From positions 1 to 9,944 of the forward strand of contig JAUWXV010000133.1 in assembly GCA_030616165.1 (NCBI GenBank): a stretch of 9,944 bases of DNA, read 5' to 3'. The notes beneath the pieces were generated by a model that searched no databases, was not told the DNA's origin, and saw only the letters and a program-made list of their open reading frames with translations. Every line of letters begins with the position of its first letter. Position 1 is the stretch's first letter. The translations under genes were made by a program, and so were the position numbers. The stretch comes from a bacterium. Lineage in GTDB: Bacteria; SM23-31; JAUVVT01. Positions 8,420-9,939 of this stretch are shown piece by piece.

Positions 8420-8483
8420 TTCAGTTCACCTATTTTTATCCCGAAAATAGAACCACGAGTTTCACAGATTTAAGAGATTAGAT

Positions 8484-8512
8484 GTAGGGACAGAACAGTG
8501 TTCTGTCCTTAC
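8484..8512 (+). repeat. hairpin repeat family A, copy A4
   Basis: GTAGGGACAGAACA (8484-8497) pairs with TGTTCTGTCCTTAC (8499-8512) over 14 bp including one G-T wobble, with a formal 1-nt loop. It shares the GTAGGGACA lead of A1 and A2 but has AGAACA/TGTTCT at the tip. It lies 65 nt upstream of the UroD-like start. Confidence 0.85.
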
Positions 8513-8681
8513 AATTATTTTCACGTTTCGTGGCGCTCTGAAAGAGCATGAATGTTTAGTTTGGTAAAGATTCATCAAGTGGTATTGGGAAATTAAAAAA
8601 CAGCCATAAAGTTTTTTTTCATTAAACATTATAATTATATTTAATAGAAAATATTTAATCCTTATTTTAATAATATTTTTT

Positions 8682-8707
8682 GTCACTCCCCCGGGTACTC
8701 GGGGAAT
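8682..8707. repeat. fragment of family C palindromic repeat
   Basis: GTCACTCCCCC then GGGTACTCGGGG and AATC resembles the palindrome at 9872-9893 (CCCCCGAGTACTCGGGGG), with G for A at one position and a shortened right arm. It looks like a degenerate partial copy. Confidence 0.55.
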
Positions 8708-8734
8708 CTATAAAAGACTAAATTGATAACGGTT

Positions 8735-8771
8735 TTGTATGTAGGGGCAAACGGCCGTTTGCCCATACAAA
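8735..8771 (+). repeat. hairpin repeat family A, copy A5
   Basis: GGGCAAACGG (8745-8754) pairs perfectly with CCGTTTGCCC (8755-8764), and the outer TTTGTAT (8735-8741) pairs with ATACAAA, separated on the left by a GTAG bulge. It sits about 93 nt downstream of the AllA-like stop codon. Confidence 0.8.
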
Positions 8772-8863: not shown

Positions 8864-9361
8864 TTAACGAATAATTTTTATCTTGTCTTCTTCTGACAAA
8901 ACAGCAACTTCACAGTCATTAGCGTATGTCCTTTCAGGAAGGACAATCACAACATTGGCAGAATCACCGCCGTCCACAAATGGGGCGTGATGCCAGACAC
9001 CCGGTTTTAATGCCACTAAAGTTCCTTTTGGAACTGAAAATACTCGAAATTCATCAAGGGGAATATCATCCTTTTTGGTAGCATGTGCCGCGTGGATTAA
9101 TATATTGCTGTCGAGTGGAAGAATCCCCTCTCCGGTCGAAGAATGAAACTCCGCAACCTCAATTATCTCCGGTCGCTTCTCAACCCGGCAGATAGAAAAG
9201 GAAGCAGTCGAAGAATCCCCCAAATTCAACTGAAGGATATCTCGATAGAATTCTATCGGTGGCTGACCAAAATGCACCTTATCCGGATTAATCATATTTG
9301 CAAAGTACCCGTATTCGCTGAATGACTCCATTGTTAATTTTTCAATTTTTACTTCTCTCAT
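8864..9361 (-). CDS. AllA-like ureidoglycolate lyase family cupin
   Basis: This 165-residue protein resembles AllA, the cytoplasmic cupin that splits ureidoglycolate into glyoxylate and urea at the end of allantoin breakdown. Matching stretches are the N-terminal KIEKLTMESFSEYG (5-18), VAEFHSSTGEGILPLDS (69-85, compare LERHPLGTQAFIPM in E. coli AllA), KPGVWHHAPF (119-128, compare RNVWHHPLF) and NDCEVAVLSEED (148-159). Length matches AllA (about 160). The ATG has GGAGG (9372-9368) 6 nt upstream. No other purine-degradation gene is visible, so it may serve a related ureido acid or sugar acid, or act as a housekeeping remnant. A MITE-like insertion ends a few bases before its ribosome binding site, so its promoter is probably inside or beyond that element. 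The family call rests on motif recognition; the substrate is uncertain. Confidence 0.78.
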   Translation of the reverse strand: MREVKIEKLTMESFSEYGYFANMINPDKVHFGQPPIEFYRDILQLNLGDSSTASFSICRVEKRPEIIEVAEFHSSTGEGILPLDSNILIHAAHATKKDDIPLDEFRVFSVPKGTLVALKPGVWHHAPFVDGGDSANVVIVLPERTYANDCEVAVLSEEDKIKIIR

Positions 9362-9376
9362 TTGTCTCCTCCATTT

Positions 9377-9623
9377 TAATAGATTGTTCTGTTCAATTTT
9401 AACACAAAAAAAGAAAACCTAATCACAATAATAAATCCTATATCCTAAACTCTAATATCTAAATAAATCCAAAATTCAAATTTCAAATGTTATAAACATA
9501 TTTTAACTTTTCTATTATGAATTTAAACTTATATTGTTTTGAATTTTGAATTTGTTTAGAATTTAGTATTTAGAATTTAAACCACTTACTTTTCAATCTT
9601 AATTGAACAGAACCTAATAGATT
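9377..9623. mobile_element. MITE-like element with 13-bp TIRs and 9-bp target duplication
   Basis: Perfect terminal inverted repeats GTTCTGTTCAATT (9386-9398) and AATTGAACAGAAC (9601-9613) bound a 229-bp segment (9386-9614). The 9-mer TAATAGATT occurs immediately outside on the left (9377-9385) and again on the right (9615-9623), one base beyond the right repeat, as expected of a target-site duplication. The interior is AT-rich with imperfectly complementary arms (CCAAAATTCAAATTTC around 9469-9485 against GAATTTTGAATTTG around 9540-9554) and has no transposase. A non-autonomous transposon is inferred; the 9-bp duplication is compatible with several IS families. Confidence 0.7.
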
Positions 9624-9854
9624 TATTTTGATATTTAGAAATATTATATAAAAAATATTTTTTGAAAACAATATAAAAATTTTTCACTGATATAAAAAGA
9701 ATCAAAATATTTTTTGACAAAATATATATAATTTCGTAAATTATAAAGAAATTTCTTTTAAAAGAAGATAAAATTTTGTTCATCCGGCTTTTTAGTTATA
9801 CGAAAGAGTAAAATAAATTTTAATTTATATATTAAATAATCGAATAAACACAAC

Positions 9855-9939
9855 TTGTCATTTCGACCGAAGTCCCCCGAGTACTCGGGGGACGTAGTGT
9901 CCTCCGAAGGCGGATCCGCCTTTGGCGGAGAGAAATCTC
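9855..9939. repeat. family C composite repeat, full-length form
   Basis: TTGTCATTTCGACCGAAG (9855-9872) leads into a perfect 22-bp palindrome (9872-9893, centre GAGTACTC). Next comes AAGGCGGATCCGCCTT (9907-9922), a 16-bp palindrome that overlaps the alternative hairpin TCCGCC-TTT-GGCGGA (9915-9929), ending in AGAAATCTC (9931-9939). The last 28 bases are identical to 6918-6945. The repeat may continue beyond the window. Confidence 0.75.

Follow-up and report, generated by a model that had tools for sequence, protein, structure and literature searches.

A 2012 study by Matus-Garcia et al., 'Promoter propagation in prokaryotes', reportedly described putative mobile promoters, that is, near-identical sequences that carry a promoter and are situated directly 5' of non-homologous genes within one genome. 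Among transposable elements, Tn7 uses one sequence-specific site, attTn7, and the IS6 family generates an 8-bp duplication and has the ends GGTTCTGTTGCAAA. Several bacterial MITEs carry outward promoters, such as the Correia elements of Neisseria, MITEAba12, and BrickBuilt (reviewed in PMC10969869), and MITEAba12 shows no orientation preference (PMC6382973). The same review (PMC10969869) also cites transposons directed to a target, among them Tn7 with its site attTn7.

We analyzed a bacterial DNA stretch of 9,944 nucleotides, hereafter the window, in which a MITE-like element of 230 bp (9385..9614, minus strand) is situated directly 5' of a ureidoglycolate lyase (AllA)-like gene. The best reading of this locus, from comparisons of sequences, would be a promoter-bearing MITE that was put, or has been retained, in a constant register with start codons.

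The element, its copies, and its mobility

The boundaries of the element were determined by comparison of its copies, and in the sense of the gene it runs from its right end (9614) to its left end (9385). The preliminary description of the window had proposed perfect inverted repeats at 9386-9398 and 9601-9613, and these are complementary at all 13 positions. Comparison of the inverted repeats places the gene-proximal left terminal repeat, TGTTCTGTTCAATT, at 9385..9398 (13 of its 14 bases pair perfectly with 9601-9613) and the right one, AATTGAACAGAACC, at 9601..9614, and the alignment of copies gives (T/G)GTTCTGTTCAATT as the termini of the element. The direct repeat of 9 bp that had been taken as the target-site duplication does exist, with TAATAGATT at both 9377-9385 and 9615-9623; however, since base 9385, the ninth to match, already belongs to the element as its outermost base and the other two-ended copies show 8 bp, the duplication is of 8 bp and the element is 230 bp long rather than 229 bp. 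The gene-proximal copy of the duplication, TAATAGAT (ATCTATTA in gene sense), occupies 9377..9384 and is identical to the distal copy, TAATAGAT, at 9615..9622. The interior of the element is a long imperfect palindrome (9439..9579) with arms at 9439-9480 and 9538-9579 that are 81% complementary, and the folding of the element in single-stranded form surpasses that of every one of 200 shuffled sequences (z = -4.0). The only ORF of at least 60 aa that overlaps the element is one of 65 aa entering from outside, and there is no transposase gene within it. An Rfam search over the window gave no match. Other short palindromes in the window (CCCCCGAGTACTCGGGGG, TCCGCCTTTGGCGGA, GGACAGAACAGTGTTCTGTCC, and GGGGCAAACGGCCGTTTGCCC) are found at 9875-9935, 8480-8520, and 8700-8760, and the type GTACTCGGGGGA recurs across the genome, where its distance from genes varies.

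We then searched for copies in the whole of the organism's own assembly (G000), a draft of 3,740,993 bases in 343 contigs; gene statistics were computed on 1.0-1.2 Mb of the 3.74 Mb. BLAST of the element against this genome yielded 53 matching pieces at E <= 0.001, far more than chance would give, and full-length copies on other contigs have 74-79% identity (best non-self E = 2.5e-70). The preliminary description had suggested looking for further copies and held that their absence would speak against its reading; about 25 copies or fragments were found in the 3.74-Mb genome. Terminal inverted repeats are present at both ends in the window copy (C119) and in C93, C42, and C182. Target duplications of 8 bp flank C119, C93 (ATTTATAT), and C42 (TAAATATT), and that of C182 (TAAGTTAA/TAAATTAA, TAARTTAA) agrees in 7 of 8 bases with one mismatch; C37 has no recognisable target duplication. 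The window copy is the best preserved, at 93% to the consensus. Most other copies (e.g., C93, C295, C42, C215, C59, C51, and C148) contain a 20-bp GC-rich palindrome, CCTGTCTGCCGACAGGCAGG, with flanking bases, which the window copy lacks, and C182 has an array of GGTAGGACAGACATTCCTGTCTGTCGAATTGGC repeats where other copies hold this palindrome. At a contig end (L141, G000:C18, 16754-17334), the AATTTAGAATTTAGTATTT-like interior motif of the element is repeated in tandem every ~32 bp.

The closest relative compared, G001 (JAUVVT01, bacterium isolate CSMAG_1171), has a contiguous allA leader without the element, ...AAGAAAATTAAAACGGAGGAACAAAATG (ATTAAAACGGAGGAACAAAATG). When the window flanks are joined over one copy of the duplication, the sequence ...AATAAATCTATTAAAATGGAGGAGACAAATG (ATTAAAATGGAGGAGACAAATG) is of the same length as in G001, the common part ATTAAAAYGGAGGA...ATG being equal in both, and the element sequence is thus not ancestral in the relative. 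Because the leader length is the same in G001, the 23-nt distance between element and start codon at allA dates from the insertion, without later tuning by indels. The G001 orthologue of iscU/nifU (C170 in G000; Pfam NifU_N) also lacks the left-end motif. The multiple copies, the 8-bp target duplications, and the uninterrupted leader in the relative show that the element is mobile; by the features tested (inverted repeats, duplications, multiple copies, an empty site, and no gene) it is a MITE. The proposal in the preliminary description of a non-autonomous element inserted just 5' of the ribosome-binding site of the AllA-like gene is supported by the other copies, the 8-bp duplications at four loci, and the relative's leader. 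The DNA target duplications led us to discard an integron-like or mRNA-derived mechanism. Five genomes of the small phylum were searched for DNA related to the element and contain no full copy, G002 alone showing a short interior similarity, and the exact left-end pattern was absent from the other bacterial genomes searched.

A predicted promoter at a fixed distance from start codons

The AllA-like gene (8864..9361, minus strand; 165 aa; Pfam PF04115, E = 9e-11; 78% identical in G001) lies downstream of the element, from which its ATG is separated by a leader of 23 nt (9362..9384, minus strand). This leader contains the Shine-Dalgarno sequence GGAGG at 9368-9372, which is 12 nt from the element and not ~4 nt as had been stated. 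The left end reads TAAAATTGAACAGAACA outward, and in the direction of the gene it consists of a T-tract, a G, and TAAAATTNAACAGAACA. Within TGTTAAAATTGAACAGAACA, a predicted outward box TAAAAT (9396..9401, minus strand) begins at -40 from the ATG, is conserved in all 17 left ends that reach the tip, and is probably a -10 box; it has five of the six bases of the sigma70 consensus. About half of the copies have TG one base before TAAAAT, i.e., an extended -10 as in the window, and no -35 box is recognisable in the left ends. Transcription is predicted to start near 9388-9390 (minus strand), or about -28, which would give a leader of ~28 nt. A general promoter scan at the left end gave scores no higher than those of shuffled sequence in this AT-rich stretch, and the predicted promoter is therefore argued from its conservation and position instead of a score. 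The hairpin interior, previously suggested to fold in the mRNA leader, would fall outside it because it lies upstream of the predicted start. Any older promoter would be located in the AT-rich DNA 5' of the insertion (9623..9859). That the gene may be silent, as was also suggested, is not the best reading, given that the gene-facing end has a conserved -10-like box in a fixed register to the ATG and stands before unrelated genes, some of them essential.

Using a left-end profile, 17 intact left ends reaching the tip were found in the assembly, and all 17 face a downstream gene in one orientation. Counting the bases between the element tip and the A of the ATG, the distance is exactly 23 nt in 13 of the 17 (C295, C51, C93, C249, C148, C326, C119, C276, C325, C154, C37, C231, and C296), and it is 22 nt in C301, 24 nt in C170, 26 nt in C182, and 94 nt in C42; C93 was counted from the ATG that follows GGAGG (23 nt) rather than from the ATG 8 nt downstream. 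Under a uniform spread over 20 nt, the chance of 13 of 17 falling on one value is <1e-12. The downstream products are unrelated by Pfam and comprise DAHP synthase, ATP synthase beta (atpD), ThyX, NifU/IscU, isocitrate/isopropylmalate dehydrogenase, HIT, macro domain, short-chain dehydrogenase, M20 peptidase, MFS, ceramidase-like, iron alcohol dehydrogenase, beta-lactamase-fold, and AllA-like proteins; several of these target genes are essential. Where the left end is missing or degraded (in C215, C59, C220, C73, C277, and C317, for which a TTG close to the element was taken as gene start), the copy still precedes the start of a gene and keeps the orientation of the others; contig-end fragments and short tandem arrays (C18, C158, C132, C29, and C286) are uninformative on position. 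For three further dispersed repeats in this genome, the distance to the next gene varies and both orientations occur.

Measured in 16 copies, the distance of the element to the ATG varies with an sd of 0.8 nt, which is less than the variation of its distance to the Shine-Dalgarno sequence (sd of 1.7 nt in 13 copies). The duplicated octamers at the targets share no base consensus, and a consensus target sequence in these 8 bp was accordingly rejected. AAAATG is found at the start codon in 11 of 16 targets vs. 20% of comparable genes (p = 5e-5), an excess which could be part of target recognition or a reflection of well-translated genes. Among native genes (~300 upstream regions), we found no fixed -10 box and a flat base composition from -40 to -35, and a de novo motif search of native upstream regions returned a T-rich signal only. 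The idea that all genes of the organism have a -10 box at -40 was likewise discarded, as TAWAAT is at best slightly enriched near -45 in native genes, without any exact position. In three paralogous secreted-protein genes (L197:19488, L168:692, and L201, minus strand, ~3410), we observed a common leader with two Shine-Dalgarno-like blocks (GGAGGTGATA/GGAGGTAAA) ~60 nt apart, which may point to a short upstream ORF.

A search for repeats at a constant offset from the ATG revealed a second palindromic family, unrelated in sequence, with ends ...ATTTATTTTTGACATTA and upstream arms TAATRTCAAAAAT. Its seven copies in G000 (L216-L222 set; C18:2931-2989, C32:5218-5277, C175:9528-9586, C178:6592-6651, C67:6632-6689, C271:663-720, and C317:9617-9661) show no clear target duplication, and five of the seven lie 26, 26, 26, 27, and 27 nt from the ATG, C271 being the exception and C317 being truncated. 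A TAnnnT box starting at -40 is common to the two families, with the sequence TAAAAT in the first family and TATTTT in the second. As the position of the box agrees while the ends differ by 3 nt (23 vs. 26), a constraint on the promoter-to-ATG distance is favored over the geometry of a transposase; the shared box at -40 favors such a constraint with the qualification that the box of the second family is weak and that AT-rich DNA offers many such boxes.

Possible causes of the fixed register

We consider it probable (about 0.7) that this is a dispersed, non-autonomous MITE with an outward -10 box, the left end of which acts as a mobile promoter. After insertion, the left end would supply the promoter of the gene, with the box, the RNA start, and the leader predicted above, and insertions would then be retained since the left end works as a promoter. 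The odds are about even that the exact spacing was set at insertion, with transposition tied to some component that occupies the start codon. Candidates for such an anchor would be RNA polymerase paused at the ATG or an initiating 30S-polymerase complex; the octamer that is duplicated covers -23 to -16 and, judging from the footprint, would be just behind a polymerase pausing with the ATG in its active site. Enrichment of E. coli RNA polymerase pauses at the ATG was reported by Larson et al. 2014, as cited in PMC4457086 and PMC12288461, and few pauses at the ATG were found in PMC4457086. As for a target-directed transposon, both distance and orientation are fixed among the copies compared, and the landmark would be the start codon and not a sequence. 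More tentatively, and at clearly less than even odds, insertion would be measured from the start codon, in one orientation and ~23 nt before the ATG, with each jump swapping in the element's promoter at a working distance. Against anchoring stands C42, which has both ends and a clean duplication and yet sits 94 nt from the ATG.

Conceivably, selection alone could have produced the register, which we regard as a serious contender a little short of an even chance: insertion would be random in AT-rich DNA, and the survivors would be those with the promoter at the optimal distance (box at -40, ~28-nt leader). The same C42 shows that insertion elsewhere occurs, two unrelated families both have a -10-like TAnnnT at -40, several target genes are essential, and of the two ends the one with the promoter seems to be retained more frequently (by eye, left-only copies outnumber right-only ones, in small numbers). 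Nevertheless, native genes have no such -10 constraint, and a selection acting at one nucleotide would have to be peculiar to these promoters; copies without the promoter end are still situated 5' of gene starts in the same orientation; and the best-preserved copy is already exactly at 23 nt, with the leader length unchanged in the relative. Between directed insertion and strict selection as the cause of the 23 nt, the balance is near even. Two further explanations fare much worse. The similarity of C170 and C325, which is limited to ~40 bp directly 5' of the gene, would suit a native class of promoters that the palindromic element merely adjoins, a reading that is improbable and largely refuted: the motif forms one arm of the perfect 13-bp terminal inverted repeats, the other arm being at the far end and target duplications flanking the two on the outside; the allA and iscU orthologues of G001 lack the motif; C325 has more element sequence ~600 bp upstream; and native genes lack a comparable box at -40. 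The AT-rich sequence and weak promoter scores would be expected of an ordinary intergenic MITE with neither a promoter role nor a meaningful position, but this is scarcely credible and is refuted by the spacing statistics, i.e., one orientation in 17/17 and the same nucleotide in 13/17.

Whether directed insertion or selection applies, a single mobile promoter appears to have rewired ~17 genes in one bacterium, housekeeping genes among them. If insertion is anchored at the start codon, the element would be a bacterial counterpart of promoter-targeting transposons, linking transposition to the initiation of transcription and translation; if selection alone is responsible, it would disclose an unexpectedly strict rule of leader length.

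Comparison with known elements

A full IS with the element's ends (GGTTCTGTTCAATT), the search for which had been recommended at the outset, was not found in the ~1.0 Mb of fetched sequence, where only chance pairs occurred, and a draft assembly may have lost a multi-copy IS. The element resembles the IS6 family in its 8-bp duplication and in its first nine terminal bases; however, the domain DDE_Tnp_IS240 (PF13610) is present in none of six genomes (0/6; the own genome and five relatives), and derivation from IS6 was rejected. Derivation from IS1595 was also rejected, as DDE_Tnp_IS1595 (PF12762) is absent from the own genome.

Promoter-carrying MITEs are already known. In the limited literature searched, none was described with a spacing to start codons that is exact to the base before unrelated genes, and that literature contained neither a MITE at a fixed nucleotide distance from the start codon nor a bacterial transposon anchored to start codons. 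Like the Correia elements, MITEAba12, and BrickBuilt, the element is short, palindromic, and non-autonomous, has terminal inverted repeats and target duplications, and would carry an outward sigma70-like promoter (here predicted), often directly 5' of genes; it differs from them in terminal sequence and duplication length, and from MITEAba12 in having one orientation. As with Tn7, position and orientation are fixed relative to a gene landmark, a likeness of behavior only by which no membership is claimed; unlike Tn7, the targets are many unrelated genes with no shared target sequence. Similar sequence is found at 17 left ends, in the same orientation and directly 5' of genes of differing, non-homologous families, as in putative mobile promoters, and by this behavior we infer that the element, with its predicted promoter, is one. 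In contrast to the putative mobile promoters, the vehicle here is a defined transposable element with target duplications and an exact register to the ATG.
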